Shown one piece after another: positions 12,001-56,000 of a DNA stretch of 64,000 nt (its first letter is position 1; each line of letters starts with the position of its first letter). The position numbers and the translations under genes were made by a program. This stretch comes from Tubiluchus corallicola (Eukaryota; Priapulida; Priapulimorpha; Priapulimorphida; Tubiluchidae): assembly GCA_030141605.1 (NCBI GenBank), contig JAQGDQ010000599.1:52501-116500 (forward strand), written 5' to 3'. Under the pieces are notes generated by a model. It was not told the DNA's origin. It saw nothing but the letters and a program-made list of their open reading frames with translations, and searched no databases.

Positions 12001-14027
12001 GACAGTTTTTATATAGTTTAGTTTTGCATAGGAGTGGCCCGTATTTAAACGTTTTTGAGACAATTATGTATCATGTATCCTTGATGGTTAGGTATTTTGA
12101 ATTATGCACGAGACAAGGTAACTGATATTTTAAGTCCACTTAGAGGCTCTCTGTGGCACACGCAGCCCGAAGCCGCTGGCCTGTTTCAGAGTTTTTTGCA
12201 ATTTGTCATTCTCATCCCTGCTTTAAAATTACTTATACCATGACTAAGGCAATCACTCATGTATATTTAATGATAATACGAGAGCTGTTCTTTTATAGCT
12301 ATTTAACTGCAGGGTGTGATTTTGATTAGCAGTTGAATGTAAACGACCTGGTAATGTGTGATAGAACAGCCATTTAAATCCTGTCCTTGTTTTGCAAGAT
12401 TATGGCGTGCATTTATTTGCTTGTGCGTCTAATTAGTGCGTAATAAGTTATCGATCCTTTCAACGACGTTCTCGCTTTGACGTGATCACAGTAAATTAAT
12501 AAGAAATTAAAATGAAAATTAGTAAGCCTGTCCTATGTGTACGGTCTTCATCCATTTAGAGTTTTTTGCAATTTTTCATTCTCATCCCTGATTTAGCCTA
12601 TAATTATTGACTTAATCATATCGATTAAGTGTGTTTTCTCTGGAGTGACACCATGATTACTCATTCATTTGTTATGCCAGCCATACTGATTTGATGTTGT
12701 TATTCAGCATTGTAATGTCTAATGGGAATGTACCCACTTGTTCTGACTCTACTTGATGCAGGCCTTTTAGTGGTAGTGATAGCAATAGTCATAGTCATAT
12801 GATGTTTACTGTTTGGTCTCACAAGTGTAAGCTTGTTGGTGATGATGATGACAACGATAATGAGGACGATGACAACTCATATCGATATTGTAGCAAATAT
12901 GATCAAATACGACATAGGCACACTTTATTAACACTTAGAAGCTGTACGTTATAAATCTGGCACAAAAATATCTATTTTTCAAGTGTATGTATATTTTTTT
13001 GTAACTGCGCTAAACACACAAACTTTATACCATTTTGTAGATGTTTTCAAGCCGTACAAATCTCACTGTAGTTTTGTTTATAATGATAATTTCTAGCTGT
13101 GCATCTAGTATCTGTGTAGCACTAGCCTAAATTATTAGCAAAAATTCAAACTTATGAAAACTGGTTCATATTTAAACACAACACACAGCACCAAACTTTC
13201 AACTTTCAGCTAACTTCTCTGCTGTATCATGACAACTAATACAGTAACTATTTAAAAAAATAAAAGACGGAGTATGCAATACATGGAATTTTGCTATCGG
13301 CTGTGCTTTTCTAGGGTAGATGAGAGATGACCTATTTGAGGAATTTTGCAGAAAGTTACGCAACACTTTTTATTCATTTTCTTGCAAGGAAATACTTTGG
13401 CTTTACTTGTTTGTTTGTTAGGACAGCATATGCTGTCTGATAAGTGTTAAAACAAAACATTAAAGACATCATATGCTGTCTGATAAGTGTTAAAACAAAA
13501 CAATAAAGACAGCATTGCTGTTTGATAAGTGTTAAAACAAAACAATAAAGACAGCATTGCTGTTTGATAGCTTTTAAGTCTTAATCTCTATGCAAAATTT
13601 GTACTTTTATAGTGACACAGTGATAAATTGATACTAATGACAATGACTTTGATGCTGGATTTGATGTTAATAACTAGTATGCTGATGACTTGCATACTGA
13701 TTGTGGATTAACTCTTGTGTTTGTAATACAGAATGGATTGACACCGCTCCACCTCTGTGCACAGGAAGATCACGTACCAGTGGCAGCAGTGCTGGTGAAA
13801 AATGGTGCTGTCATCGATCCACAAACCAATGCTGGCTACACTCCATTGCACGTAGCCTGCCACTTTGGACAGCTTAACATGGTGCGATTTTTATTGCAAC
13901 ACGGTGCTTCTGTGGATTCCAAAACAGAGGTATGTTACTTCAAATTCTGTTTTTCCTTTCTCCTTCTTTTTTCTTTCTTATTGACTCTTTTTGACTCTCT
14001 AATTTTTTTACTGTCTTTGTTGGTTTT

Positions 14028-14075
<48 letters not shown>

Positions 14076-17000
14076 CTCTGTTCCACCCTTCCTCTCTCCT
14101 CTCTTTCCCTCCCTACCTCCCTCCCCCCTTCTCTCTCTCTCTCTCTCTCTTCCTCTCCCTCTCCCTCTCCCTCTTTCTCTCTCCCCCTCTCTCCCTCTTT
14201 CTGTCTCTCGCTTTCTTTCTCCCTTCCTCCCTCTTTCTCCCTCTCTCTCTCTCTCTCTTTCTCTGTCTCTCTCTTTCTCTCTCTCTCGCTCTCTCTCTTG
14301 CTCTCTCTCTCTCTCTCTTTCTCTGTCTTTCTCTTTCTCTCTCCCTCCCTCTCCCTCTCCTTCTACATCTGTGGTGTTCTGAGTATTGTCAGTGCATCTG
14401 CCAAGTAAGAACTTTCAGAAGATTTTATGATGAAAATACTTCTTTTCAGATGGGTTACACACCTCTGCACCAGGCGGCACAGCAAGGTCACACTCTCATC
14501 ATCGACCTCCTGCTCAAACATAAAGCTTCTCCAAACGAACTCACTGATGTACGTTTTTTATGTATTTTAGTACAGCAGAAAGTACAGTCAATTAGTTGGA
14601 ATTATTAACATCTATTAAGGACATACTGTTAACATATCAAGTCATGTCAAGTATGACATACTTAGAAACATAAAACTGAAACATAGTAGTATTTTTATCG
14701 ATAGCTTCAGAAAGTCATTTTTAAAGATGAATAGGTTATGCCTATTGCCAGAGTTAATAGAAATAAAACCTTAATAGTCTTCCAGTTATGAAATATCAGG
14801 GTTAAGCCACAGTGAATTATGTCAGCAGTATAAAGGTATCAAGTTTTGTTCTTATTGGTGTGCTAATTGGTTTTTCAAATGATCCATATTTTGTAGGTTT
14901 TGATATCGTGTTTTTTTGTCAACATTTGTAATTACAGTGCCATTGAAACTATTTTTAAAAGGTTTTTTTGCTTTTTAATCTCTCACTATAGAAGTAGAGA
15001 AAAGAATTTTAATCTAAAGTAACAGGAAGCCTGTCAGAGCATTTCCTAGATGACATTGAATGGCATTTCCCAGAAATGTAAAAAATCTCCAGGGAAAAGA
15101 AAAATGTGACCTTATTAGCCATAGCAACTATTTATAAACATCAAATAGATTTATTACTCTAAAATGATAAAAACATGTGTTCCATTCAAAGACTTTGTCT
15201 TTGACGCTCTTGTATTTACAGTAGTTGTCAAAACACGTTTTTGCGTTTTATTGGTGTTAGCGGACTGTCACGTCAGTAGAGGTCTATTGCTGGTGCATAA
15301 CTTTCAGTGCAGGCGCTTTGTTGTCACTGTTGTCACTAGAAACTGTTGTCATTATGATTGTAAACAAATCAGTTTATGGTCACTTGTAGAATGGCCAGTC
15401 GGCGATCTCAATCGCACAGCGGCTCGGATATGTTTCTGTGGTGGAGACGCTAAAAGTTGTTACTGAGACGACCGTCATAACGACTACGACGACGACTACA
15501 GAGGAGAAATATCAGATGGTGGCACCGGAAAGCATGCAAGAAACGTTCATGTCTGACTCGGAGGACGAAGCAGGTGAGTTATTCATCTCGGAGCACATGT
15601 TAAATGTTAGCCGGTCATGTGCTATGTCTGGCTTCACCGCAACTTCAGGTTTCAGTGATATTAATGTTTAGGTTTACTTGTAAGAGACATAATTCCTTTA
15701 GATTGAGATTTATGGCTTCGGCTCTTCATTAAATGAAGCCATGTACTAGTTTTGGCTTCTCCATGTTCGTCGTGCAGATATTTGAAATTATTGCTCTCGT
15801 TTGTCTGCCGTTGTTTTGCTCCTGGTTGAAGCTGCTGGATTTGAGCTTACAGCGGAAGAACTTGATGGTGTCCGTTTGTTGCTGGACCAAAGCCTAGTTA
15901 ATCCTTCAAGATCTCGTGAGAATTTGACAAACGGCTCTCTGGAGAGCGCATCTTTTCGCCTTTCTTCTCTCCTGTGAGTTACAATCGTTCCCTTCTACAG
16001 TTCTTGACTACTTGCAAGAATATTACAGTTTCCATGGCAACCTATAGGAGTACTTTTCGAGGTAGAACGAACTCACCGAATGCATTAATATGAACTGTAC
16101 GTTGACTTTTTTCGATGCTCAAATGTTTTCACCAAACTGTGCAATTACATATATAATGTTGTCCCAGTGCATTCAGGATAAGCTTATTGGTAAAAAAATC
16201 ACTTGGAATGCATCAGATTTGTCTTCTTCTGATAGGCTGTCTTTTTATTTATGTTCACATTGTTTTTTTATTTTCTCCGATAGCTGTGCGCTAGCACCAC
16301 TCCCTATTTAGTCTTTGATTTTAGAGCATGATTGAATTCAAAGCTACTAAATTGTTAAGGATCTGTTAGTTAGCCACAGTCTTCATTATTAATTTTCAGT
16401 TGACGTGTTGTTGTTTTTTTTACTGTGTCATCCTAGTCTAAATCTTTGATTGCATATCATTCCATTCTATGTGCCAAATTGCGCAATATTATTTTTTGCT
16501 GTTATATTGTGAAGGCAATTTTAAGAATTCTTTCATTGCCTCTATCAAAAGTAACCTGATTTCTTTTAAATATTGGTTGCATTTTTTCTAATCATTTTAA
16601 CATAATCTACTTTTTCTGGTAACAAATTTTTCTAAAACATCGCTGTAGTTTAAAGAGCTAATGGTAATAATGATCCTTTGACTTCAGAGGATGTGCAGTT
16701 TGCTAGTTGCCGTCTTTATACAGTTTTTCTTCCTTTCTTATTTGGTTGCTTTTGTGCACATGATATTACTGCTTTCGTATTTGACTTTTATTTTTTTAAC
16801 ATTATAAGTTTCTTTTGTTTGTTTTTCGTCTTCTATTTTTGTTGTCCAATCGTGTAGGGGAAGTGTTGGAAAATTATCATAGGAAATCGGCAAAACCCGG
16901 TTATTTGGTGTTTTACGATTCCAGTGAGACATCTGAGGAAGGTATGGGTGTGAACCTGGCTTTAGGTCCAACAGATAAAAAATTAGCTGCATTTTTGGGA

Positions 17001-32000: not shown

Positions 32001-35000
32001 GCACTTGCTTTTCGAATTATTCTCGAAGATTTTCCGCATTAGAAAAGTTTTGCACTGCAGACGGATCAAAAGTAGACGTTTTTGTTTCGCATAGCAGAAA
32101 GTTTGCTATATACGTTTACTGGGAGTGACTGTCTACCGAGACTTGTGCGCATTAAATATACGAAAGGTTAAAAATGCATTTTATCTCTATTAGTTTTTTC
32201 TACTTTTGACACCTTACTGTTGCATAATAATTAGGTAAGAATCAACAAAGGACACCTGGGTTTGAGTTTGTTTCAAAAGTGGGCTGTAAATCGGTCTATG
32301 TTTGGAACCAGTCTTAATCTAGTATAAAAATCAGAATGTTATTAATATCACCTACAACTACTGCCTTGTTTACAAGCTCAAAAAAGTCGGATTCTTCCTG
32401 GGTTACCTAATGAATTCTCTGGAGAAAAATTTAGTACAATGGGTTAGGAACCTGATGAATTCTCTGGAGAAAAATTTAGTAGAATGGGTTAGGTATGCTT
32501 AACCTGTAGGTCTCTATAGACTTTAATTATATTTGAATGCATGTAGAAAGTGTTATATTTATATGTTAACTGGGAGTGATTAAATGGAGCTTTTGTAACA
32601 GCAACTAATCAGTGGTGAGTTTGTTAATCGCATGCTTGTAAGCAAATTTAGATTGAGTCAGTATGTGCTATTGATGTGTATTGCAAAGAAATTGTCTGTT
32701 GTCTCTTGTAGGTTAAACGGGCAATTCTGTTTCAGAATTATTGTTCTTTTTACAGAATTAAACAAAAACTAAAAATGTTAATTTATTTTGTTTAGTGCAT
32801 AGAAAATCTTTCATTGTTTTTTTATCATTAAATCAAAATGACCATTGATATTGATATTATTATTTGTGTTGTTGTACATTGTTATTCTTTTGTAAATTAT
32901 TTGTCAGTTTAGCTTGATACGGGTGTTTAATATGTGTAACGTTTTGCTTAAAATAGTCCATCATTTTTTGCATACCATGAACTTGTGTAATTTCGAATAT
33001 TTTGCTGTTTTAGCTTCTTGGTAAGTTTCATGGTGGACGCAAGAGGTGGCGCCATGCGTGGCTGCCGTCACAGTGGCGTACGGATCATCATTCCCCCGCG
33101 CAAGGCTCCGTCGCCGATGCGGATCACTTGTAAACTAGTGAAAAAGGAGAAACTGATGCATCCACCCCCGCTGATGGAGGGAGAGGCGCTTGCTAGTCGA
33201 GTGCTAGAGATGGGTCCTGCAGGGGCGAGATTTTTAGGGTGAGATATTTCTTAGATTCAGTTTTAAAATTTCAGATAGGTTTGCCGAATGTTTTGCTTGA
33301 AAGCAAGTGTTTAAAAATACATCCAAACCACTAAAGTGTTTTATATACAGTTTCTCAGTACGTAAACAAATAGTTTTTAATGTGCGTTATCTTATAATCA
33401 TAATTTATAAAAACCTATTATAGACTGGAATAATTCAACAAGGTCTTCATTTACTAAACACGTTTTCAAAAGCTATAGGCAATTGCTACTTCGTGCTCGG
33501 AAAGGGGTGCTTATTCAGTTTTATCATTTTGCGATGAAGCCGTCAGTACCTGTCCTCTTGTGTGTCTAAATGATTACCTGTCTACTAGAAGCAGATGTCA
33601 ATTGACTCGTGCATTACGTATTTTCATTATAATATTAATTACAACACATTTGGATGATATTTGCACAAAGTTGTACAGAATCACAGCAGTGTGTCATCTT
33701 TTATTTTATATATTATATTTAATTAAAGGTTTCCACGTTACAACACTGTTTTTATATATCAGTATATCGTCATCATCATCATCATTATCATCATCGTCAT
33801 TATCATCATCATCATCATCATCATCGTCGTCGTCATCATCATCATCATTGTCGTCGTCATTGTCGTCGTCGTCATCATCATCATCACCACCATCACCATC
33901 AACCGTCACAGCACTTTCACCCCGGCGCCCTATCTTGCTATTCTTTTGACTTTCTTCATTATTTGGTATTGGCAAAAATGAGAACGAAAACAGATATTAA
34001 ATATTTTTGTAGTACCTATTAGTGGACATTGAAATTTACCATTGTTGTAGAAAATGGCCTACATTAGGCCTATTAGTGGACTTTGAAATTTACCATTGTT
34101 GTAGAAAATGGCCTACATTAGGCCTATTAGTGGACATTGAAATTTACCATTGTTGTAGAAAATGGCCTACATTAGGCCTATTAGTGGACATTGAAATTTA
34201 CCATTGTTGTAGAAAATGGCCTACATTAGGCCTATTAGTGGACATTGAAATTTACCATTGTTGTAGAAAATGGCCTACATTAGGTCTATTAGTGGACATT
34301 GAAATTTACCATTGTTGTAGAAAATGGCCTACATTAGGCCTATTAGTGGACTTTGAAATTTACCATTGTTGTAGAAAATGGCCTACATTAGGCCTATTAG
34401 TGGACATTGAAATTTACCATTGTTGTAGAAAATGGCCTACATTAGGCCTATTAGTGGACATTCAAATTTACCATTGTTGTAGAAAATGGCCTACATTAGG
34501 TCTATTAGTGGACATTGAAATCTACCATTGTTGTAGAAAATGGCCTACATTAGGCCTATTAGTGGACTTTGAAATTTACCATTGTTGTAGAAAATGGCCT
34601 ACATTAGGCATATTAGTGGACATTGAAATTTACCATTGTTGTAGAAAATGGCCTACATTAGGCCTATTAGTGGACATTGAAATTTACCATTGTTGTATAA
34701 AATGGCCTACATTAGGCCTTGGAGGCCTAATTAAGTAAAGGAACGTAATTCACTAAATACAAACTCTGACAATTTTATTCTAATTTTTCGCATGTAAACT
34801 TAATACTGCATATGCCAGTTTAGCACTGTAATCAAAAGTATGACTTAGGTTTAGTGATCAACAGAAGTTGTACAGTTGTGTTTCTTCTGTATTAATGGAC
34901 GAGATGTGATTGCACCCCATAACCAGTATTCATGTGACCTTGACATGTGATTACACCCTATAACCAGTATTCATGTGACCTTGAGTTGCGATTACACCCC

Positions 35001-38000
35001 ATAACCAGTATTCATGTGACCTTGAGATGTGATTACACCCCATAACCAGTATTCATATGACCTTGACATGTGATTACACCCCATAACCAGTATTCATGTG
35101 ACCTTGAGATGTGATTACATCCCATAACCAGTATTCATATGACCTTGAGATGCGATTACACCCCATAACCAGTATTCATGTGACCTTGAGATGTGATTAC
35201 ACCCCATAACCAGTATTCATATGACCCTGAGATGCGATTACACCCCATAACCAGTATTCATGTGACTTTGAGATGTGATTACACCCCATAACCAGTATTC
35301 ATATGACCTTGAGATGCGATTATACCCCATAACCAGTATTCATGTGACCTTGGGATGTGATTACACCCCATAACCAGTATTCATGTGACCTTGAAATATT
35401 TCCGGTGGGGGTTTTATTGTAGAGTGCTATGGACCAGTGGATGGTTCTTGAAATTACAGAATTTTTCAATTACTGCACATTAATTAAGTCGCAGCTACTT
35501 GGGCATGTCGCTGTTATACTGCTTTCTTTTAATTCATGTCAGATCAAATCTCTGATGCAGTGTACAAAAACATGATGCAGATGTTTGATTAGGCATGCAT
35601 AAATGCATGCAGGCTTGGTTCAGTTGGTGGCATACATGCAGAACCTTACCATTGGCGAGGGAGGAATCTTCTGGCTTCCTGGATTAGAGCCAAAAGTGAA
35701 GCCAGATGTTTGCTATCAAGTAAACCGGTCACGTGACACAACTATCAGTAGCATCTGCATGTTGCAACTAGTAGTTTGCTAGAACAGTAAATACAGTATC
35801 TAGGAAGAAGGGAATGGCCGTCTTTCCTAGTTTCAGATCATTTTGGGAAGCCAATAAACATATCGTTGTAGCTACTAAACATTACATTACAACACACCAT
35901 TTTTACATTATTGGCATTTTGAGACACAACTATAGAGCAAGTGTTTAACAGGGGAATTTTTCAATACTGTAATTGAAAAAGGAAGAACTGTGAGAAAATT
36001 GGTGTGAAATTTAGTGTGTAGGAGTTATAGAATTCATTTCTGCTTTCATTTGTCTGTTTGCTCATTCATTTGTTCATTCATTCATTTCTGCTTTCATTTG
36101 TCTGTTTGCTCATTCATTTGTTAATGTTTTGCTAATTAGTTACTAGCTGTAATATATTTCTGGACCTCTAGGCTTTTTGCATATCCTATTTATAATGTTG
36201 TTCCATGCTTAAAGCTCAATGTCATTCCGTGCTTAAAGCTTAATGTCATTCCGTGCCTAAAGCTCAATGTCATTCCGTGCCTAAAGCTCAATGTCATTCC
36301 GTGCCTAAAGCTCAATGTCATTCCATGCTTAAAGCTCATTGTTATACGTGTACTAATCATGTACGTGACATTGCAGGCCAGTTATAATAGAGGTGCCACA
36401 TTTTGCATCGCTCCGTGGGAAGGAACGAGAGATCACGATTATGCGCAGTGATAATGGAGAGACGTGGAGGGAGCACACACTAGAAGCTAATGAGACGGCC
36501 GTGCAAGACGTACTCAATGAGAGCTTCGAGGGAGAAGGTGTGTTGTCTTTATGCAACTTGTTCTCGCTCTTATACGCGGACAGTCATGCAGGGATGAGAA
36601 TATTCCGTGGATACGTGGAATTCACAGTTTTTGGAAGACCAGTAGTGCCATTTTTGTAAATCGCATAAATTCTTTGAGAAAATTTTCACGGACCCAGTAC
36701 ATTATTTCACAAGCTGACCACTAGTTGGCAAGCCGTCACTTTGTTTACATCACGTACATCAGTGTAAACACGTGCATATCTCTATGTATAAAAATATAGA
36801 ATTAATTGCGCAGAGTTATTTGAGTCAATTGCAGACATTTTTTAAATACTTTTGCATAGGAGGAACCAGTATTTAGCTGTTTTTGAGACAATTAGGTATC
36901 ATGTATCCTTGATAGTTGGGTATTTTAGATTATGCATGAAACAAGGTGATTGATATTTTAAGTCCAATTAGAGGCACTCTATGGTCACAAAATTGCTATT
37001 TGTTATGTCCTTCTGCTTTTGCTGTAGTTATTTTTATCCACAGTACACTCATGTCTCGGCTTGCCCGACCTTGCTTTTACGGATATCGGAAAAACTGACA
37101 AAATCTGGACCGCTAAAAGTCCTGCATACTATAGTGTTGTTTCGTGAGCTGACTGCTAGCTGGTCACTTCGTTTACATCATTACATCAGTGCAACCAAGC
37201 AGCATGTAATGACACGTTTGTAGCTTGTATGTCAGGACCGGCCTGTATTAGACGTTTTTGAGGCAATTAGGCAATTGATTCTACGTTACCGTGATTCTAA
37301 TACACGGCGCCTACCGTATTAGCTTATTATCGGCAAATACGGACAATCGGCAAATTCTGACCGATGTCTTCCCGCTTTCGTCCGGCAAACCAAGATATGA
37401 GTGTGTTCTTAAACTGTTGCACTAATTTGTTTTTATACATATTTATAATTTTCCCAGCACAGTGCTTTGATTTTGATTTTTCAGAACTGGATGCGATAGA
37501 AGATTTACACACAAACAGAATAACACGAATCCTCACAAACGACTTTCCAGTTTACTTTGCCATCGTAACTCGAATACACCAGGAGAGCCGGACAGTCGGC
37601 CCTGAAGGGGGCATGGTTAGCTCGACCGTTGTGCCACAGGTGCAGGCGATGTTTCCGGAAGGAGCGCTGCAGAAGAAGATTCGCGTTGGCCTTCAGGTTG
37701 GTTCCTCTTCTAAAAATGGATCAAAAGTTAGAAAGAACTTTTTTGTCGCTAGTAGAAACATTTTAGCTACTTGCATGATAATCTATTCAAAAGTAAGTTA
37801 GGGGTAACTTAAGGTATCTTATAAATAGTATGGCTGTCAAATGTTCAAAGGAAATACCCTGAAAGCCTCTCATACTGCACTATGACCAGGGTTTTGCATA
37901 TGGCTTTTTTTGTTTAGAAAAAAAGGCTACTGTTTGTGAGATAATCTATAATAATCTATAATGATGATGATGATGATGATGATGATGATGCTGATGGTGA

Positions 38001-41000
38001 TGCTGATGGTGATGGTGATGGTGATGGTGATGGTGATGGTGATGATGATGATGATGATGATGATGATTATGATGATGATGATGCTGATGCTGAGCTGATG
38101 GTGATGGGGATGATGATGATAAATAATATTAAAAATAATCTATAATAGATAATATAATCAGTGTCAGTATTAACTACTTGAAATAATACCACTCTTCAAT
38201 TTTACACGGTTCTTGTGGTGTGTTTTCCCACTATTTTTGCTTTGCCTGTTTAACCTCTGACCCATACATTTCATAAATATTTTGTGTTTTTGTGTATGGA
38301 TCATATGATGTTTTGTTCTGGCCAACGTTGGCCAAATTTTTCTTAACTTTGAATCTAATGAGATGCGAAAAAAACTATTCAAAGTTGAAATTTAAGCTGT
38401 GTTCACCTTATATCTGTTTAATATACTTGTGCTTGCTACAAGTAAAAATTTAATGGGTTCCAGGAAAAATTAAGAATTTTCTATACTTCTTTTAAAGCAT
38501 ACACTTGTTTGATTAACGTTCAATGTTTTTCTAGGCTCAACCAATTCCTTCTGACACTGTTCGCAAGTTGCTAGGCAACCGCATCGCTGTGAGTCCTATT
38601 GTTACTGTAGAACCGAGACGTAGGAAATTCCACAAACCGATCACGTTAACCATTCCGGTACCGCAGGCAGCAAGCAAGGGCATGATAAACCAGTATGGCG
38701 GGGACGCGCCCACGCTACGGTTGCTCTGTAGTATCTCAGGTGGCGCTCAGCCTGCACAGTGGGAGGACATTACGGGAACAACGCCACTCACACTTGTTAA
38801 CCAGTGTGTGTCATTCACCACGACTGTTTCTGCAAGGTATTGTTAATTGCATAATTTAAGCACTGTCGTTTATTAGCATTGCATTGTATTGTATGGTTAA
38901 AATTTTTGGAAATGTCATGTACTCTACATATTCTTGAAATATAGTATAAGTGTAAAGTGTAAGGTTTTGTTAGAAATGTATCTGTAGACGTGTTTGATGA
39001 AAAATTGATTTGATTTTAAGCTTGTAAGATTGTTGTTGAACAAGTGTACTGTCTCGCTTTGACTTGAGTCTATTTGGAAACTTACACATATCTGACGCAC
39101 TGTTCAAGACAATTTCTGACATTGCCAGTTATTCTGTCTTCATGTCATCATCCATTAATTGAGCAAGGAAATTTTTTGGTTTAGCATTGTTTTTCAAAAT
39201 ATGATGCTCTATGAATAATGAAGCAATGCTGAGCAATGAGAAATAGTTTGGTAAACCTCTGAGCTTCACTTTTGAATATTTTTCTTACTCCTTGTCAGGT
39301 TGTTGAGACTGTACTGAAAGGAACAGGCCTAGTGATAAAGAAGTAAAATTTTGTAATAAAATCATTTTCAAATGAATTTGTATCCTCAAATCTTAGCCTT
39401 ATAAACGAGTGTACGAACATCGATGAAACATTTTTACTAAAAATGAATTTGTAATATTCCGGTTTTTAAAAATTGTGTAGTTAAAACATGGATCATGTTG
39501 ATGACTGAATCATATGTAGGTCTAGCACACGTACAGTTTATAATTTAGCGAAAATTCTGTTATAAAATTTTAGGTTTTGGTTGATGGATTGTCAACAAGT
39601 GAATGAAGCCTCGCGTCTTGCCACAGAACTTTATAGAGAAGCCATCCATGTCCCATTTATGGCCAAGTTTGTTGTGTTTGCCAAACGCGTGGAACCACAG
39701 GAAGGGCAGCTACGTGTGTTTTGCATGACAGACGACAAGATGGAGAAGACGCTCGAATGCCAAGAGCATTTCCACGAAGTCGCTCGCAGCCGTGACGTTG
39801 AGGTAGCTGATAATGTGATAGATGTGTTGAAATAAGTGTTATTGAGATGTTACATCAAAGACTCTGCAATAGCTATTTTTATACTCTTCTCAGGGATGAG
39901 AATTTTCCACGGATAAGCGAAATTCCGAGTTTTTGGAAGACCAGTAGTGCCATTTTTGTAAATCGCGAAATTCGTTGAGAAAATTTTTACGGACCCAGTA
40001 CATTATTTCACAAGCTGACTGCTTTGTTGGCAGGCCGTCACTTTGTTTACATCACGTATATCAGTGTAACCACGTGTAGATCTCTATGTATAAAAATATA
40101 GAATCAATTGTGTGGAGTTATTTGAGTCAATTGCAGACAGTTTTTATATACTTTTGCATAGGAGTGGCCAGTACTTAGGTGTTTTTGAGACAATTAGGTA
40201 TCATGTATCCTTGATAGTTGGGTATTTTAAATTGTACATGAAACAAGGTGATTTATATGAAACAAGGTGATTGATATTTTAAGTCCAATTAGAGGTTCTC
40301 TATGCTCACAAAATTGCAATTTGTTCTGGCTGCAAGGGAGCTTCACCCCCCTTGAACCCTACCCGGCCCCCAAACCCCCATTCCTGTTTCAGAGTTTTTT
40401 GCAATTTGTCATTCTCATCCCTGTATTCTACTGCTGAATTAAAAGGCATCTCTTTCGCTTAGAATAGATACGATGGTTAGTTTAGATGAGCTCTTCTTAA
40501 CTTGCAATTTGAAATGTTGTATTTTTATACGAGTGAAATGCAGAACATTAAATAGAGAAGTTACACTTTTTTGCAGGTTTTGGAAGCTAAGCCACAATTT
40601 ATCGAAATGGCAGGTAACCTGGTACCTGTGACAAAGTCCGGAGAGCAGCTCTACCTTCATTTTTTCTCATTCCAAGAAAACCGTCTACCTTTTATTGTGA
40701 GAGTGCGGGATCCGCACCAAGAAGCTTTAGGTAACGCATGTGAACCAGCTCTTACATTACTAGGCTAACACATGTAACTTGTAAAACGTGACTTTGACAC
40801 AATTATGCCAAACCTATTTACTTATTTTGTTAATTTTATTAATAGATCTACAAAATATGGTTTTGATTCTTACCACTTTTTATGTAAGAATTGTTTTTGC
40901 TTTATCAATGAGCGCTTTTACACTTCTTAGCATTTCATTAACATTTACACGTTCATCTTTTCAGCAAGGATAGCATTTATGAAAGAGGAGAAGGCTAGCA

Positions 41001-44000
41001 AAGGAGAACCACCTCAGACGCCAATATGCAACCTTAATATAACTCTTCCAGATTACACTCCAGTAAGTGCAAGTGTTTCGTTGAGACATTGTTATATTAG
41101 TGATTGTTTACATGTTACTAGACTACGGCCAAATTACGTTGAAAATGCCGGTTCTCGTCTGATCGCCGAAGTTAAGCAACATAGAGCCTGGTTAGTACTT
41201 GGATGGGTGACCAACAAGAAAAACTGGGGCTGTAGGCTTGCGGGATGCCCACACTGTATCTCGACACTAGGCGGAGGAGGTCAAGTGACCCAACGGCCAT
41301 GTGTAGAGGAGTAAACCTTCCAAATCAGGAGTGGAGCCCTGAAGCGGACCAGTGCAGCATGCTCACTGACTCCGGCAGCTCCTGCAGCCAACCTGGTGCC
41401 AAACGTATCACTCCGCTTTCCTTTGGACTACACCAGGGAAGAAGAGAGGGGGTTCCTGTTGTCTGCGCAACTCAGGATCTCCATACACCTTGCCCAGGCG
41501 TGCGCCCTGGAGACGTTCAAGGATCGCACTGCCCAGCCACAGTCGACGCTGCAGCTCCATCAATGTGTTCAATAACTGACTCTCTTGGCCCACATTCCAC
41601 TGTCTTCCAAGACAGAAGGATGCCAACCATTACATGTTACTAAAGAAGACAGTTATGAGGAAATTTGATCTAAATTAAATCGAACAGCTATCTTACGTTA
41701 CATATTGTTTAGTAAGTGCGATCTAAACTAACTGTAAGAACATTAGCTCTAACTTGTTTATCTTACTGTGACTTTCTTGTGTTAGTACACGAGAATATGT
41801 AAATTTATTTTTAAGTGAATTATATAACTTGCTTTATTTTCACTTATATTTCTTGTTTGATTTTCCCTAGAAAAGCAAAAATGTGCCAGAATTCTGATTT
41901 TACGTTTATTCCTTGTCTTCAACTAAAATGAGACAGACAGTAAGGCTATTTTTTAGTTTTTTATTTGTTTCGTTCGCCCTCAACGCACGAACTTACCAGT
42001 GTTTGCCGTTTTCGTTGCAGTTACGATTAGCCAGGGAACCTCATTCGCCCAAAACCGAATTAGTAACATTGGAGAAAAAGTATGGTTACCTGTCTGAGCT
42101 AGGAGTGGGTGAGTAGAGCGTGTTAGATTATTGTCAGAGTAACTAACATGGGGAACAATTTTATTTGTCGGTCGCCGAGTAACCCACTAGCTGAAGTAGG
42201 ACAATTGGCGTACATGGGCTAGCCCAAGTAGGACGCTAGAGACATGTCACAAATTGAGTTGTTAACCGTACTGGCAGCACCCGTTGTCCTTGTTTATTTA
42301 ATAATAATAACTGAAAACGTCAAAAATATACAATAATTTATTTTATACCTGGTAAAATAAAAGAATCTTATTTTGAGTTAGTAAAATTTCCAATATTAAA
42401 TTCGGCTTCGATATTAATCTTTTTGAAGTGAAATAAGCCCACTTTTTAGGCGATTCCAACGTTTGCTTAAGGTATATCACTTTCATTTTGTCTCGCTTCA
42501 CAGACAGGTGACCCGTTTCACTACCTCTTGGACAAATAATTGTTTTTTTACTAAGTAAACGGGTTAGCGAGCTATGTGCCTTACATAGTTCCTCTCTTTA
42601 AAGCATTAGATACTTTGTTGAATGTTATGATGATATTAATGGAGCTAATAATAATGATGATATTACTGTAAAAAACATTGTAAATTGTCAAGGAGTATCC
42701 ATCATTATTATAAAGTTACTTTTTTCTAAAACAAATTTAGTTTTACGTTTCATTATGTCATAATTCTCGACAGAAATCGCCAGTGTCCTACTTGGGCTGC
42801 CCGTGTACGACACTACTTTTCCGCAAATTTAGCACATGCGTTTTAGCGGAAGTGTCCTACTTCGGCTAGTGGGTTACTCGGCACCCTACAGAAGTATTAG
42901 TAGTGTCGATAACTTTAGTATCGATTTTAGGAACTAGTAAATTAAATGCATGAAAAGGGTCCCTCTTATCAAGTGTTCTGTAATTTGTTTGAAAATAATA
43001 ATCTGTAAATCAAATACTACAATTTACAAACTACACAAAACTTCAATTAACTAACAAGTTTAATTTGTCTGATTCGTTTGTTTAACTGATGCGTAGATCC
43101 CTTGTTGTCAAGAAGAAGTTTTCGACAAATTGCGAATTCCTGTCTATTTGTCAAAACGTGATTGCTGATTCGTTTAATTTGGTTGTTGGCAAATCGGGTA
43201 TTTTTTTATGCTGCCACCATCTTAACGTAAATTATAGTATGCAGCATTGTTTCACACTTGCATATTTCATTCCTTTTTTAAGTAACCTTTATTACTATGT
43301 GTTTTCTAGCCCGTGATACAACAATTTCTAAAGCAGACATGCGTTTATCGGACATTGCCTATCAGCTGCAGGGAGATTGGGTAATGTTAGCCTTACAGTT
43401 AGACATTACTGAAACTGAAATTCAACAAATAAAAGAAGAGCATCCATCCAATGTCAATGCACAGGCTCTAGAGATGCTGAAAATTTGGAAGATTCAGAAG
43501 CGGGAGCTGGCCACAGGTATGATTTGTTCACGGGGTCGTTTATTTTGTGTGGTCAACGTTTCTGCAGGGCAGCGAACAACAGTTAGTTTGCTAGGAGACA
43601 ATCAAGAATGCTTCGTTGTTTTTTGTGCACTTTGTAGTTATTTTGCCTGTCTCTCGTCGTTTTGTTTGACCGTTTCCGTAACTTTATTCATAGCATATGT
43701 GCCTTATGTAATTCATTTCATTCTCATGCTTTTATTTGCATTTGTTTCTTCACCGTTGTAGCGCGATCAGTGAATCCAAACTTAATAGTTTTTTTGTTCA
43801 TTTTTCAGTATGATTATAAAAAGTAAAATTCCAGCTGTTAATATTCAGTCACATATAGTGGTCTTGCTTTTTTTAGGCAACAGTCTTGAGAAGGCTCTTC
43901 GTAAGATCAATCGAAAAGACATCGTCGACAAATCCATGACAAACGTGGAACTTGTGACGGATGAACTTGAGCAAGCGGCAGCGAAAGCTGCAATGGACCA

Positions 44001-47000: not shown

Positions 47001-50000
47001 ATTTGTCTTTGTGTGTGTGTGAGTTTCTGTGTGCACATTTGCTATATAATAGGATTCTGTGCATATTGTTATTAATTTATTGTTATTTTTGAGAAACGTA
47101 AACAGTTCTAATTGAATAAGAATGATGCGCTTAATCAGCGTAACTTTTGCATTGTTTCAGTATTTGCATCAGGTCATTTTACGTACTTATTATGCTTGGC
47201 ATTGTAAGCATGACAGTATCTTAAAATGTATTTGTGATGTTAATTTGGTATGCATAATAAATCCTGATTCGTGTGAATTTGTGTTTGACGTCTATAATTT
47301 CCTTTGTGGTTTCCACAAACATCTTTTAAATGACTATTTCTGGTCGTACTATTACTAAGATAAGATAGGTTTTAAATATTTAACTTTTAATTCTTATATT
47401 TTGTTCTAATTCTGTTATTCATTGGCTAACATTTATGTTAGAAACAGTTCCCTCAGATATGTCAAGCTCGGATGAAATTGACTCGCCCCCTGGTGGTTCT
47501 CAATGTGACGAGAAGAAGCATCCGGAAAGACGTAAAAAGGGACATCAGTTAATTGAACAATATGTCGAGATCTTTGAGGACGTAAAACCTGCGCCTTTAG
47601 TTCCACAAGAAAATGATCTTATTGATGCAAGATGGGAAGAGAGGGTGAGGGACTATGAGCAAAAAGCTGAAGTTGCCGATGATGCTGTCGGTAAGGATTC
47701 GCGTCTCGGCTACTGGATCAAACACCGTGTGAAATGTTTTGAGATGGACGAAACTGGCACAGTGCCAGCAGCTGAAACTGTGGTCGAGGCCGACGTTGCA
47801 CCAGGGGAAGTAATAGAAATTGTGCACGAGTTACTTGATGAGTCTGATGCCGGACACTTGCCTGAAGAAGAAATTCCATATGTTGATTCTGAGGTGGAAG
47901 TAACATCCGAAAGACCCAAGAAAAAAAAGCGCAGGTTGTACGAAACAGCAGAAGAGCAGCTTATTGAAATCCTTGAAGACTGTTGCCCACCACCTGCTTT
48001 CAGTCCTAGCGAAGAAGGTGAACCCACTGGTACTGATGCTGGTGCAGGTGCTGACGCTGATTTAGATCCTGACAGTAAGCAAAAGTCTGCAAAAAAATAC
48101 ACTATGGAAGAACACCTTGTAGAAATATTTGAAGAATATAATAAACCTGAGGTAGAAGGTGATTTGATGAATGTTGAACCACATTTAACTATTTCAGAAA
48201 TGCCTTCAGGTGATACAAAAAGCGGACAGACCTTAGATACATCTGAAGATATTAGTTTACCCTTTAAAAGTGATATTTTAGATGAAGATGTAACTAGTTC
48301 TTCTAGCTGCATTGAACAATCAGAATTACTTTTTGTCGAAGAGCAAATGCAGAAGAAAATAAGTCCACTTGATAGTTCCATTCCAAGCAGCCAACCAGAA
48401 GAAACTATGAGTGATGTGCTGGCAGAGGTGAACGAGGATTTGATTGTAGCTTCACGTCGTGAACCGCCACACGTTGGCAGCCAACGTGTTATTGTGACAG
48501 ATGAGGAGAAGAGCAAAATACTTGGACTGCTGTGCTCATTAGATGATACCGAATATGCCAGCACTATAACTAAGTCCCAGCCAGGTAGCTGCACGTTACA
48601 AGCATGCATAGACGTGCTTGCTGATTTGTGTACGACATTGCGGCATGCAATTAGATTGTGCCTCTTAAATGAGCATTTATATTATAACGTCTTAGTGGTT
48701 AACAGACATTATTTATATGCTAACATGTTGAAAATAAACCAGTCGAAAATATCTTAGTTCTACTAAATATTGTGTTTTTGGTATTGTTGTGTGGTTTCTG
48801 TTAACTTAATACTAACATGTCCTATGACATTAGCCTGCATTCGATGTAAAATAACAATTTGAATTGTAATGTGCATCTTTATTAACACTTACTTATAACT
48901 TATTTAGGACAACAGGAAGCGGTGAAAAGATATGAAATTATAAAAACTGCTGCTAGCGAAATAGTAACGCAATGGCCATCTAACGAATACTCATATGTAA
49001 AGAAAGAGGATTCTAAGGACTCTCCTATTGCCGAACCTGAGGAAACAAGTGATTTATCTTTATCATTTCAAAGAACGCATCCGGTTCATGGTGTTGCTTT
49101 GACTTCTCAGCAGATAGATGAAACTTTGTCTGTTGTGAAAACTACTAATGCTCCTATGATAAGAGTATATGAAGGGGATGCGGATCTGGAAGATGAAAAG
49201 AAGCATATAACCGAAGAAGAGTTAGAATATTCTAAAACTACTGCAATGGAAATTAGTTCTGAGTTCGAAAAGGGGGCATTAGATGAACCTGAAAAAGAAG
49301 CTTTGATTAAAACTGAAACAAGTGAAATATCCATGCAAGAGCAAGAACATATTTTGCATGAGTATGCTATTTCAAGTGAATCTGTAAAACTTAGCAAAGA
49401 ATTTGTTGAACCCTTTCAGCCAGCAAAAGAAGAAGCTGTACACGAAGAAGACGATTTGAAAAGATCCTATGAAGAAAAATATATGACCGAGGAGTTAAAA
49501 TCAGAAGATGTGCCGCAAGCTTTTACAGAGAGTTTTTACGAAGAAAAAACCGTTTTGGAAAAGGAAACTGTTCTTGCTTATGAAAAAGTACAAACAGTTG
49601 AAGAAATTTCTACTAAAGAACATGCTGAAGTAAGCGAGAAACTGATAGAACGAGGTACCTACAAGTTGCCCGTAGTCGATGAAAAAGTATGTGATATTGA
49701 TGTTAGTGATAAGCTGAGTGAATCACAAGAATATGTACCTGGAGAAATATCTACCGAAAATATACCAAAAAGCGAAGAATCTGTTAGAGAAGACATTCAA
49801 GAAATTGTATCGGAAAGTGAGATTGCTTTTGCAGTTCGTGACAAACAGAAATTTGAAGACGAGGTGTCAGAAGGAAAAGAAGAAAGCTTTGAAGAAAAGG
49901 TGATGTCAGATGAAGAAGTTGTTGATGTTATTGGTGAAGAATATGAAGAAAAATTTGAAGAAATAGAGAAGAAAATTTTAGAACAAAGATTGCCTTTTGC

Positions 50001-53000
50001 TGAAGATATGCCAGAAGATGAAGAAATTGTTAGAGAACACATTGTAGAAATCGTATCTGAAGCAGTACCTGAATGTGATAGTGAGTTTGCAGCTTATGAG
50101 AAGCCTAGACTCGAAGAAGATATGCCTGTGATTGAGAAAGCGGTTATAGAACATATACAAGAAATACGAGCAAGTGACAAGGGGATGGCAGAAAAGTTTG
50201 TAGATGCTACAGATATAGAAGCTGCTACTAAAAGACCATTAGAACAATCATCAGAGGAGTTTCCGATTGAAACTGAAATTGGTGAAGTAATAATTGAAGA
50301 ACATGAGACAGAAGCTGTAACAGAAAAACAACTAGCACAAGTGTCAGAAGAACTGCCCTGTAAAACTAAAGTTGAAGTAGTGACCGAAGAATACGAATCA
50401 AAAGCCGTATGTGTGGAAGCAGTAGCAGAAGAATATGAGACAAAAGCTGTTCCAGTTGATTCTAAAGTTGATAAAGTTGTAGCAGAAGAATATGAGGCAG
50501 AAGCTGTTCCAGTTGAATCTGAAGTTGGTAAAGTTGTAGTTGAAGAATATGAGGCAGAAGCTGTTCCAGTTGATTCTGAAGTTGATAGAGTTGTAGTTGA
50601 AGAATATGAGGCAGAAGCTGTTCCAGTTGATTCTGAAGTTGGTAAAGTTTTAGTTGAAGAATATGAGGCAGAAGCTGTTCCAGTTGATTCTGAAGTTGGT
50701 AAAGTTGTAGTTGAAGAATATGAGGCAGAAGCTGTTCCAGTTGAATCTGAAGTTGGTAAAGTTGTAGTTGAAGAATATGAGACAAAAGCTGTTCCAGTTG
50801 ATTCTAAAGTTGATAAAGTTGTAGCAGAAGAATATGAGGCAGAAGCTGTTCCAGTTGAATCTGAAGTTGGTAAAATTGTAGTTGAAGAATATGAGGCAGA
50901 AGCTGTTCCAGTTGATTCTGAAGTTGATAGAGTTGTAGTTGAAGAATATGAGGCAGAAGCTGTTCCAGTTGATTCTGAAGTTGGTAAAGTTGTAGTTGAA
51001 GAATATGAGGCAGAAGCTGTTCCAGTTGATTCTGAAGTTGGTAAAGTTGTAGTTGAAGAATATGAGGCAGAAGCTGTTCCAGTTGAATCTGAAGTTGGTA
51101 AAGTTGTAGTTGAAGAATATGAGACAAAAGCTGTTCCAGTTGATTCTAAAGTTGATAAAGTTGTAGCAGAAGAATATGAGGCAGAAGCTGTTCCAGTTGA
51201 ATCCGAAGTTGGTAAAGTTGTAGTTGAAGAATATGAGACAAAAGCTGTTCCAGTTGATTCTGAAGTTGATAAAGTTTTAGTTGAAGAATATGAGACAGAA
51301 GCTGTTCCAGTTGATTCTGAAGTTGATAAAGTTGTAGTTGAAGAATATGAGGCAGAAGCTGTTCCAGTTGAATCTGAAGTTGGTAAAGTTGTAGTTGAAG
51401 AATATGAGGCAGAAGCTGTTCCAGTTGAATCTGAAGTTGGTAAAGTTGTAGTTGAAGAATATGAGGCAGAAGCTGTTCCAGTTGAATCTGAAGTTGGTAA
51501 AGTTGTAGTTGAAGAATATGAGGCAGAAGCAGTTCCAGTTGATTCTGAAGTTGATAGAGTTGTAGTTGAAGAATATGAGGCAGAAGCTGTTCCAGTTGAT
51601 TCTGAAGTTGGTAAAGTTGTAGTTGAAGAATATGAGGCAGAAGCTGTTCTAGTTGATTCTGAAGCTGGTAAAGTTGTAGTTGAAGAATATGAGGCAGAAG
51701 CTGTTGCAGTTGAATCTGAAGTTGGTAAAGTTGTAGCTGAAGAATATGAGGCAGAAGCTGTTCCAGTTGAATCTGTAGTTGATAAAGTTGTAGCTGAAGA
51801 ATATGAGGCAGAAACTGTTCCAGTTGAATCTGAAGTTGGTAAAGTTGTAGTTGAAGAATATGAGGCAGAAACTGTTCCAGTTGAATCTGAAGTTGATAAA
51901 GTTGTAGCTGAAGAATATGAGGCAGAAGCTGTTCTAGTAGAATCTGAAGTTGGTAAAGTTGTAGTTGAAGAATATGAGGCAGAAGCTGTTCCAGTTGAAT
52001 CTGAAGTTGGTAAAGTTGTAGCTGAAGAATATGAGGCAGAAGCTGTTCCAGTTGAATCTGAAGTTGATAAAGTTGTAGCAGAAGAATATGAGGCAGAAGC
52101 TGTTCCAGTTGATTCTGAAGTTGGTAAAGTTGTAGCTGAAGAATATGAGACAGAAGCTGTTCCAGTTGATTCTGAAGTTGGTAAAGTTGTAGTTGAAGAA
52201 TATGAGGCAGAAGCTGTTCCAGTTGAATCTGAAGTTGGTAAAGTTGTAGCTGAGGAATATGAGGCAGAAGCTGTTCCAGTTGATTCTGAAGTTGGTAAAG
52301 TTGTAGTTGAAGAATATGAAGCAGAAGCTGTTCCAGTTGAATCTGAAGTTGGTAAAGTTGTAGTTGAAGAATATGAGGCAGAAGCTGTTCCAGTTGAATC
52401 TGAAGTTGGTAAAGTTGTAATTGAAGAATATGAGGCAGAGGCTGTTCCAGTTGAATCTGAAGTTGGTAAAGTTGTAGCTGAAGAATATGAGACAGAAGAG
52501 CATCAAGATAAAACTGGAGAAGTAATAGCAGAAGAACACGAGACAGAGGCTGTTACAGAAGATCGTGCAGATGAGACTGATGAGCTAATAGCAGAAGAAT
52601 ATGAGACAGAAGCTGTTCCAGTTGAATCTGAAGTTGGTAAAGTTGTAATTGAAGAATATGAGGCAGAAGCTGTTCCAGTTGATTCTGAAGTTGGTAAAGT
52701 TGTAGCTGAAGAATATGAGGCAGAAGCTGTTCCAGTTGATTCTGAAGTTGATAAAGTTGTAGCTGAAGAATATGAGGCAGAAGCTGTTCCAGTTGATTCT
52801 GAAGTTGATAAAGTTGTAGCTGAAGAATATGAGGCAGAAGCTGTTCCAGTTGATTCTGAAGTTAGTAAAGTTGTAGTTGAAGAATATGAGGCAGAAGCTG
52901 TTGCAGTTGATTCTGAAGTTGGTAAAGTTGTAGCTGAAGAATATGAGGCAGAAACTGTTCCAGTTGATTCTGAAGTTGGTAAAGTTGTAGCTGAAGAATA

Positions 53001-56000
53001 TGAGACAGAAGAGCATCAAGATAAAACTGGAGAAGTAATAGCAGAAGAACACGAGACACAGGCTGTTACAGAAGATCGTGCAGATGAGACTGATGAGCTA
53101 ATAGCAGAAGAATATGAGACAGAAGCTGTTACAGAAGATCATGCAGATGAGACTGATGAGGTAATAGCAGAAGAATATGAGACAGAAGCTGTTACAGAAG
53201 ATCATGCAGATGAGACTGATGAGGTAATAGCAGAAGAATATGAGACAGAAGCTGTTACAGAGGATCATGCAGATGAGACTGATGAGGTAATAGCAGAAGA
53301 ATATGAGACAGAAGCTGTTACAGAAGATCATGCAGATGAGACTGATGAGGTGATAGCAGAAGAATATGAGACAGAAGCTGTTACAGAAGATCATGCAGAT
53401 GAGACTGATGAGGTAATAGCAGAAGAATATGAGACAGAAGCTGTTACAGAGGATCATGCAGATGAGACTGATGAGGTAATAGCAGAAGAATATGAGACAG
53501 AAGCTGTTACAGAAGATCATCCAGATGAAAGTGATAAAGTTGGTAAAACTGTAATCGAAGGATATGATATGGAAGCTATCGAAGAAGAGTTTCCAGTGAA
53601 AACTGAAACTGATGAAATTGTGGCTGAAAAACTTGAGAGAGAAGCTGATCTAGTTGACTCTGGAGTTACTAAAGTAGTAGCTGAGGAACTAGAACTTACC
53701 ACTGCAGGTAGAGAGGCTGTTACAGGAAAGCAACTAGCAGACATGTCAGAAGAACTTCCAGAAGAAACAGACTCTATTTTGGAGGAAGAAAGTGACACAC
53801 AGGAATTCACTGAAATTTACAGAAAAGTTGAAGTGGCAGAAAAAAAAACTGGCACATCTGCTGACCCCGTGAAAGTACAACCACCAGAATGTATAACAGT
53901 ACCAGTTCCAGAAGAACCAGATATAATAACAACTTCTTTTATTGATGATCATGTTAATGTTGAATATTTTGCGCAGCCATTTACTGAATTATCTGATCTA
54001 CTTATTGCCACTTCTGCTGAGGATACGAAGGAAGAAATTATATCTGAGGACATTGTGGAATGCACAGCTGAACCTGAACCCAGTGATGCACTCTCTCAGT
54101 TTATAGAGACTTACAGAGACATTTTCAAGATTAGCTCAGAAGAAGATGCAGACCGCGGCCATAAAGGTATTTCCCTCATTAGGCTGCTATGTGCACATCG
54201 TGTCTGCTACCATCGACCAGCTTGCTATGTTCTGTATTTCATACAAGCGAACATGAGTATTGCTTGCTATGCATGCAGCCGTTTTCAACTGGAACTTATG
54301 TTAAGGTACACGAAATCGAAGGCACGTTTTTCGTTCTTACAGAAAGCTTGCAACTGCATTAACTCTGCTTGCTTCACCGATTCTTCAGTTTTTTCAGTGC
54401 AGTTATCATTGTTCATGCGGACGTTTGTCAGTATAATTTGCAATATTTAAACGGCATACAACCCAAGATAAGCATGTCTTTTTCACACCTGCCGATCAAG
54501 ACAGCCCGAAATTTTCAGTTTTGCTTTTGACTAGAACATTATTAGTTTTCTTTCAGCCTTTTAGCATGTTCAACAAGCCTGAGTAGCATAGTGAAGCATG
54601 CAGCAACTTGAAATAATTTTTCATAAAGTGCTTTATTTAACAAATAATATCGGTAAATAAGTTTGTTTTAACAATTGTGTCAGCTTTCTTGTTTTTGATA
54701 TATATATATATATGTGCTTTTAATTAAAGTAGTTTTTATCCTTGTTGTGGAAGCATCCCCGTTACATAATAACAATTTTAAGTCTTTGTCTTTAATAATA
54801 CTCTGCTTTAATCACAACTTTTCAAGAGAACAGTTAACTTCTCACTGTTGCTTTGTTCTTACTTATTTTCAGTTTGCTCTGTTAATTAATGTTAATTAAC
54901 TGTTAAAAAATGCAGATGATGATAACTATTAATGTGTGTTCACGTAGTTACTAACACTAAATAGATACATTGCATGTCCTTGCACAGGTGACAGAGACTC
55001 CGGTAGCGACCACACGGTCGAAGAAGAGGAAATTTCTCCGGTCGTAGTTCCGTCATCCCGTCCCCGCCCTAGAACTCAGTCTCCTTCATCCCCCGCTGAC
55101 GTCGTACAGATGCTAGTGGCGGAAACCCAGCGAATCGATGCCGCCTATAAACCAGCCGTGATACGACCACCTGTCACTGAAGGTAGAATAGCTAACATTT
55201 GTGCATCCCTGAAATGTGAATACTAATCTCTCAGTCTCTTTACAAAAAAATCATGAGCGATTTTCAACCATTTTCTGATATTTTGCACTTATGTTCCTAA
55301 TTACAACTAATTAAAATAATCAAAAGGTAATTAGTTAGCATATTATTTTTTGTACATTTATTTGTTCAATACAGTCGACCCTCGTTAAATCGGACCCCGT
55401 TAACCCGGATATTGTGGTAAAGGAAACTGACCGATTTCCGTCCGAGCCGGTGCGCTAAACACAACACCGCCTACCAACTGTACAATAATTTCTTTATCCT
55501 CACAGATTAACTATTTTAAAGTAATACAGTATGGTATATAGTGCACAGTATATAGTGCAATGTATATAGGCCTTATTAAGGTGATTATTCCTGTATAATA
55601 TAGACCATATATAGGCATATTGGATAAATCAGACAATCGGCTAAACCGGACCACCCCACCCCCCGGGTTAGCCCGGTTTAACGAGGGTTGACTGTGTTCT
55701 TCACCACTTGGTAAATTTCAGGTTTGCACAAATGTATGTGGGGCTAATAACAAACTAACTTGCTTGTTTTCTGACGTGTCTGCACTTTAAAATAATTCCA
55801 CTTAATCTTTTTTCTGCACGTAATAAAGTACATACATATCAGTGTCAGGCATTTTCTCATTAATAAGACTCTTGTTTTCAATTAAGCTGAGCAGGATTTT
55901 CCGCATTGTAAATCCACGTATTATAAGCCCGTTTAAAAAATATAGCCTCGGTTTTGCTTCAAAGCCATTTTGTTTTTTTAATAGTCTCATTGTTATCATA

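Follow-up and report, generated by a model that had tools for sequence, protein, structure and literature searches.

The priapulid Tubiluchus corallicola carries an ankyrin gene in which two long phase 1-1 exons lie downstream of a genuine ankyrin death domain. This gene, here called gene A, was found on the plus strand of a 64,000-nucleotide stretch of the 131,784-nucleotide contig JAQGDQ010000599.1 (assembly GCA_030141605.1, positions 52,501 to 116,500; "the window"), which holds most of it. A second ankyrin gene, gene B, is located on the minus strand of contig C1399. Gene B keeps several of the short tail exons in order, and the long exons are without detectable similarity. Going by the sequences, the comparison suggests that long tail exons are replaced quickly and that the short exons between them are retained. 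We give an even chance to the reading that the giant exons are no single inherited block, and that short phase 1-1 exons inflate independently, by slot and by paralog, through in-frame tandem duplication. The 5259-bp exon would then be a gain of gene A, and a 5148-bp open reading frame (ORF) a gain of gene B.

The two long exons of the window, and the arrays inside the second, are:

47442..48584, plus strand: 1143-bp tail exon, AG acceptor, GT donor, phase 1-1
48908..54166, plus strand: 5259-bp tail exon, AG acceptor, GT donor, phase 1-1
50428..53011, plus strand: tandem array of a 57-bp (19-residue) unit, 45.3 copies, 0% indels
53005..53535, plus strand: tandem array of a 63-bp (21-residue) unit, 8.4 copies, 0% indels

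Both exons are open over their full length, with 380 complete codons in the 1143-bp exon and 1752 in the 5259-bp exon. The longest open run of the former (380 codons) compares with a maximum of 152 in 300 shuffles. In the unique parts of the latter the open runs are 489 codons on the 5' side and 213 on the 3' side, against maxima of 94 and 101, respectively, in 300 shuffles. An earlier, sequence-only reading had proposed an adjacent, repeat-bearing pair of phase 1-1 exons past a well-defined death domain, and the AG/GT ends, the open frames, the two arrays and the Pfam Death match (58.8 bits) bear it out. Its estimate of more than 2,100 added residues is right for the two exons (2,134 codons) and falls short for the gene. 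The window edge had cut the exon list: the contig continues with two more large exons, e3 and e4, the second of which is longer than 5259 bp. With every exon joined and the gap in e3 counted in, the stretch from the death domain through the next exon, e5, would come to 19,217 bp or about 6,400 codons. The same reading had not recognised the sequence of the extension, and the Pfam searches agree: the 1143-bp exon gave zero matches, and the sole hit of the 5259-bp exon, DUF4097 (79.1 bits), lies inside the array and was rejected as an artefact of repeat and composition rather than homology.

The long exons are biased in composition. Serine, glutamate, threonine, aspartate, lysine and proline together make up 52.6% of the 1143-bp exon, 53.0% of the 5259-bp exon, 44.6% of e3 before its gap and 53.3% of the 8.7-kb exon e4, against 31.3% in the core of the protein; the five gene B ORFs described below range from 46.7 to 52.2%. 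For the long exons of other ankyrins a mean level of more than 55% has been reported, versus 31.8% (PMC5135030). Net charge per 100 residues is -13.9 in the 1143-bp exon, -24.9 in the 5259-bp exon and -22.6 in the 8.7-kb exon. The 1143-bp exon also contains a motif of about 26 residues three times (47522-47599, 47918-47998 and 48077-48157), each copy a basic stretch followed by an EEQLVEIFED-like part. In 500 shuffles the three pair scores of these copies were attained 0, 1 and 0 times. One basic cluster was found in this exon (reached by 21 of 500 shuffles) and none in the 5259-bp or the 8.7-kb exon. Separately, two 11-residue copies resembling the helix part of this motif were seen in the 5' unique part of the 5259-bp exon (48908-50376).

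Several results weigh against reading the gene as a protostome-type giant ankyrin with a coding, microtubule-directed tail. The copies of the 57-bp array show no purifying selection in the proposed frame: over 36 units the ratio of nonsynonymous to synonymous differences (pN/pS) is 1.72, whereas the other two forward frames give 0.31 and 0.59. In the 270-residue repeat of the 8.7-kb exon it is 1.24. The six-residue bias lies slightly under the published 55% (PMC5135030), with the same direction. The basic and helical pieces of the threefold motif were chosen by eye before testing, and SxIP-like motifs, of the end-binding (EB) type, are not enriched in the long exons of gene A (2 seen, 1.96 expected); gene B likewise gave no signal (6 seen, 4.95 expected).

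The selection result would suit an explanation in which the array frames are noncoding or internally spliced out and owe their openness to a unit length divisible by three. The minus strand of the array is open too, for 802 codons, so that array openness alone is weak coding evidence, and strong-looking internal donor sites are present. Against this stand the flanking unique parts, which are open in the same frame far beyond shuffles and have a composition like that of known long exons, and the repeat units of 57, 63, 108 and 810 bp, all four of which preserve the frame. On balance we regard a noncoding array as improbable. Returning to translated exons, the 57-bp copies are young and homogenised, and protein-level selection is invisible within the main array; its amino-acid changes are mainly mild (D/E, A/V, A/T, G/D). 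Only the 63-bp array (pN/pS 0.30) and the 108-bp array of e3 (0.35, from few changes) lean toward purifying selection. An AlphaFold2 model of 12 units of the 57-bp array, with 9 stretches as alignment, was all-strand with a mean predicted local distance difference test (pLDDT) score of 57. It was discarded and left unused because structure models of repeats like those of AlphaFold2 have been described as unrealistic (PMC11795689).

The remainder of the gene was identified by searching the joined exon translations against Pfam, in which Ank, two ZU5, UPA_2 and Death all scored above the cut-offs. Exons upstream of the window were excluded from the gene model. The core features are:

1937..15573, plus strand: ankyrin-repeat exons, ten taken (1937-2221, 5446-5643, 7512-7709, 8356-8553, 9529-9726, 10718-10915, 11440-11637, 13732-13929, 14450-14548, 15390-15573); Pfam Ank 485.2 bits in 16 stretches of the joined translation
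33011..41062, plus strand: spectrin-binding core with two ZU5 stretches and UPA (exons with approximate ends 33011-33238, 36362-36537, 37472-37696, 38535-38836, 39564-39802, 40577-40763, 40965-41062); Pfam ZU5 141.4 bits (2 stretches), UPA_2 182.6 bits
43310..44005, plus strand: death domain in two exons (43310-43516 and 43877-44005); Pfam Death 58.8 bits
44432-44529 and 45849-45909, plus strand: two short exons past the death domain, phases compatible

The 16 Ank stretches are those of the window exons only; the preceding exons fall outside the window, past an assembly gap or alongside it. Against PDB, the best matches of the ZU5-UPA part were human-type ankyrin-2 (chain 6m3q_E, 695.6 bits over 458 residues) and ankyrin-3 (692.2 bits). 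The death domain matched ankyrin-2 with an E value of 3.8e-10, and the death domains of ankyrin-2 and ankyrin-3 were the top two among 28 matches. In eight exons (six of the core, e4 and e5) several acceptors or donors were candidates, and phase and homology decided between them. The death domain follows UPA, which is the canonical ankyrin order of repeats, ZU5-ZU5-UPA and Death, and the long exons begin at 47442, downstream of the death domain, as in the protostome and echinoderm type. In the definition of Jegla et al., a giant ankyrin has an open exon exceeding 3 kb on the downstream side of UPA; the 5259-bp exon in the window and the 8670-bp exon beyond it are both of this kind. Judged from sequence, the window gene very probably encodes a bilaterian ankyrin of canonical build, and of the giant type known from protostomes.

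Past the 5259-bp exon the tail continues as follows, in window numbering also where the features run beyond position 64000:

54988-55182, plus strand: short tail exon e195, phase 1-1
56750-56974, plus strand: short tail exon e224 (224/225 bp), phase 1-1
57624-57725, plus strand: short tail exon e102, phase 1-1
59801-59875, plus strand: short tail exon e75, phase 1-1
63504 to 66154, plus strand: third long exon, e3, nominally 2651 bp, with a run of 1118 N and a 108-bp repeat
67659-76328, plus strand: e4, 8670 bp (8745 bp with an alternative acceptor)
76759-77160, plus strand: e5, the next exon after e4

The window itself holds 63504..64000 of e3, the length of which is uncertain because the assembly gap of 1118 N falls inside its 108-bp array. 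In exon e4 an FDDAL-like motif occurs 35 times, mostly at intervals of 49-62 residues. The exon also carries the 270-residue (810-bp) higher-order repeat, which exceeds the 36-228 bp repeat range of Jegla et al. (PMC5135030). A short-peptide search with e102 gave no PDB match up to an E value of 10.

The gap in e3 could be taken as a sign that the locus is a pseudogene or an assembly artefact from a collapsed or chimeric contig, and tandem arrays are prone to misassembly, which leaves the copy numbers uncertain. However, the exons taken for the core are undamaged and their splice sites fit, and gene B has a parallel structure elsewhere in the genome. Furthermore, in the searched assembly of 343.5 Mb the 5' unique part of the 5259-bp exon (48908-50376, 1469 bases) has a full-length match solely at its own locus; the remaining two of its three matches are 58 bases each, within the array. 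We therefore hold an artefact or pseudogene to be highly unlikely.

Gene B was located by a domain search of the genome, which placed Death at four positions and ZU5 at five; contig C1399 has both, and 140 kb of it were read. In tblastn comparisons gene A matched gene B at 74-97% for the main pieces of its ankyrin, ZU5 and UPA exons, with one overlapping 41-residue piece at 71%. The death-domain exons matched at 60, 81 and 84%, and the exon at 44432-44529 at 84% over 31 residues. The linker exons l11 and l12 had no gene B match at an E value of 0.05. Past its death domain, gene B has open frames of 930, 1038, 6375, 804 and 5148 bp, measured from stop to stop. Tandem Repeats Finder, run on four 10-kb pieces (10 rows), found its long frames without arrays like those of gene A, the lone repeat row inside a long frame being 18 bp in 1.9 copies. 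Elsewhere in the genome, Death and ZU5 were also found together on contig C2247 (~310490-313992), perhaps in a netrin-receptor-type gene, and Death alone on contig C1813 (~291432). Searches of the assembly for COX1, Chitin_bind_4 and a molluscan hemocyanin domain gave no match, the last two being weak negatives because the controls were silent as well. A homeodomain search gave 36 matches; among the 11 translated of 12 selected loci, the Hox genes look like a protostome, probably spiralian, set, as a lead only.

The two tails were compared as 13 segments of gene A against 13 of gene B, with 100 shuffles each. Six of the 169 cells exceeded a z score of 4. All six are collinear, and no long exon is among them: they belong to the exon that follows the death domain (29.3), e195 (4.4), e224 (8.6), e102 (8.9), e75 (4.1) and e5 (5.5). 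The highest of the other cells reached 3.2. Among the long exons, the 5259-bp exon, e3 and e4 had no cell above 3.2 and at most 1.1 on the diagonal. For the 1143-bp exon, the short frame found at the corresponding position of gene B gave a z score of 2.2, which is not significant. Exon e5 was also tested separately against the 804-bp frame of gene B, and its score of 89 was reached by none of 500 shuffles (maximum 60). A scan of the gene B tail region with seven short segments (60 shuffles each) placed e224 and e102 above all shuffles; e195 (53, 95th percentile 54), e75 (38, 95th percentile 41), e3b, e6 and e7 did not exceed them all, and the z scores of 4.4 and 4.1 for e195 and e75 arose only with gene B pieces trimmed by eye. 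With tblastn, one of 14 gene A tail segments (e102, E value 0.019) matched gene B DNA at an E value of 0.05 or less. The best BLASTP match between the two tails (E value 0.006, 43 residues) paired the 6375-bp ORF with the unique 3' end of the 5259-bp exon; it was rejected because the same pair gave a z score of only 1.6.

The conserved short exons allow the long ones to be assigned to slots. One slot, flanked by e102 and e5, is shared: it is filled by the 8.7-kb exon in gene A and by the 6375-bp frame in gene B. In contrast, at the slot of the 5259-bp exon, next to the death domain, gene B has no frame longer than 930 bp, and the 5148-bp frame of gene B lies beyond e5, a part in which the gene A contig shows nothing but short exons.

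The alternative is that the long exons derive from one ancient giant exon that was split or enlarged and diverged past recognition, in which case the 5259-bp exon would descend from an ancestral bilaterian long exon. Both paralogs do have long ORFs past the death domain, a long exon in the e102-e5 slot may predate the duplication, and long exons are reported to lose mutual similarity rapidly by Jegla et al., who argue for a single origin (PMC5135030). A single origin does not predict paralog-specific slots, however, and both the 5259-bp exon, beside the death domain, and the 5148-bp ORF past e5 occupy such slots. We consider descent from one exon a serious possibility, somewhat less probable than independent inflation. 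Our reading is that the tail exons expand through tandem duplication and are quickly replaced, the 5259-bp exon having probably grown by duplication of its 57-bp and 63-bp units. Tandem duplication looks frequent in this genome, consistent with array growth inside exons. Non-coding minisatellites were seen in introns of the gene at 34015-34719 (54 bp, 13 copies), 34901-35394 (41 bp, 12 copies), 58959-59515 (132 bp, 4.2 copies) and 60140-60313 (58 bp, 3 copies).

Long exons downstream of the death domain have been described across protostomes and in echinoderms by Jegla et al. 2016 (PMC5135030). At 8 of 23 loci they come as a tandem pair, and a subset carries repeat arrays. The placement is thus already published, and the window gene adds another case of it. 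Vertebrate ankyrin-G and ankyrin-B have the same core domains (ankyrin-2 and -3 being the best PDB matches) and a giant exon that is acidic and rich in serine and glutamate. Their giant exon lies between UPA and the death domain, and that of AnkG is without repeat arrays (PMC5135030), so that the contrast in position drawn by the sequence-only reading was correct. A like layout is known from Drosophila Ank2-L and Ank2-XL, in which two long exons lie past the death domain, that of XL being filled with repeats, and giant forms are made by exon inclusion (PMC5135030, PMC6703079). The Ank2-XL repeat is 76 residues in 93 copies, whereas gene A has 19 residues in about 45 copies, 21 in about 8, 36 in at least 6 (with the gap) and a 270-residue unit. 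Unlike Drosophila Ank2, there are four large tail exons in the gene, and a second ankyrin gene with long tail ORFs. The giant isoform of C. elegans UNC-44 likewise has a long tail past the death domain, rich in S, T, E and P, and ties the membrane skeleton to microtubules in neurons (PMC7159925, PMC5135030); the arrays of gene A are richer in E, V and A, in a comparison of composition. Two giant ankyrin genes per genome are also known from Limulus polyphemus, in which multiple long exons are ascribed to recent introns splitting one exon (PMC5135030), whereas here the long exons sit in separate slots with conserved short exons between them. Among the matches listed in our literature search, of partial coverage, none compared two giant paralogs of one genome by way of conserved short tail exons.

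Ankyrins link the cell membrane to the inner skeleton, and in vertebrates and flies the giant ones organise the start of the axon. In gene A the ankyrin repeats would hold membrane proteins and the ZU5-UPA part beta-spectrin. The phase 1-1 tail exons may serve as cassettes: leaving one out or putting it in would not disturb the reading frame, so the gene is predicted to make a short form as well as at least one giant form. By analogy with fly and worm, neurons would include the long exons and so make giant forms, which would link membrane partners and spectrin to microtubules. The C-terminal repeats of Ank2-XL are required for its interaction with microtubules (PMC6703079), and in the worm an ankyrin complex, in which ankyrin works with UNC-33 and UNC-119, anchors microtubules (PMC7159925). 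Following Ank2-XL and UNC-44, the long and highly acidic tail of gene A could act as a flexible spacer and docking arm reaching the microtubule system. The 5259-bp exon is expected to be a spacer and not a direct microtubule binder because it is strongly acidic (-25 per 100 residues), and the 1143-bp exon, with its threefold basic-stretch-plus-helix motif, is the better binding candidate; it would be the likelier contact, with the acidic arrays as spacer.

Other features were seen in the introns and beyond the window. A candidate 21-nt exon (45382-45402, plus strand, phase 0-0, peptide MQLDLIK) in the intron past the death domain was spotted by eye and is a lead only. Gene B offers a counterpart of equal length and phase in the corresponding intron (L016 ~7974-7994, minus strand); it would encode AQMDLIE, with four of seven residues alike. 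DNA identity between the two is 12 of 21, not above unrelated windows (13 of 21), and the donor of the gene A candidate (GTGTGA) fails a stricter scan that detected that of gene B. The vertebrate Ank3 microexon E35a precedes the death domain (PMC12713133), whereas the candidate here follows it. Full-length 5S rRNA matches lie in ankyrin introns at 41121-41238 (plus strand) and 58328-58445 (minus strand), with 83.3 and 88.7 bits, in opposite orientation and with flanks similar by eye; they are probably copies of a 5S-derived mobile element. Beyond the window, near the contig end, a predicted first exon of a cytochrome P450 (L006 ~5234-5683, minus strand; Pfam p450 43.3 bits, N-terminal 73 positions) overlaps the last ankyrin open frame on the opposite strand; a search of the joined 79-kb stretch found no heme-binding motif on its minus strand.

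A single origin of giant exons in the bilaterian ancestor has been argued from the rarity of huge open frames, which should be hard to gain twice (PMC5135030). With two paralogs whose long-exon slots differ in part, the collinear short exons of T. corallicola provide a fixed ruler along which change in the long exons can be followed. If giant exons did arise separately in the two genes, the argument that they are too rare to arise twice would be weakened, and if slots inflate independently, the presence of long exons would be weaker evidence for a common origin.

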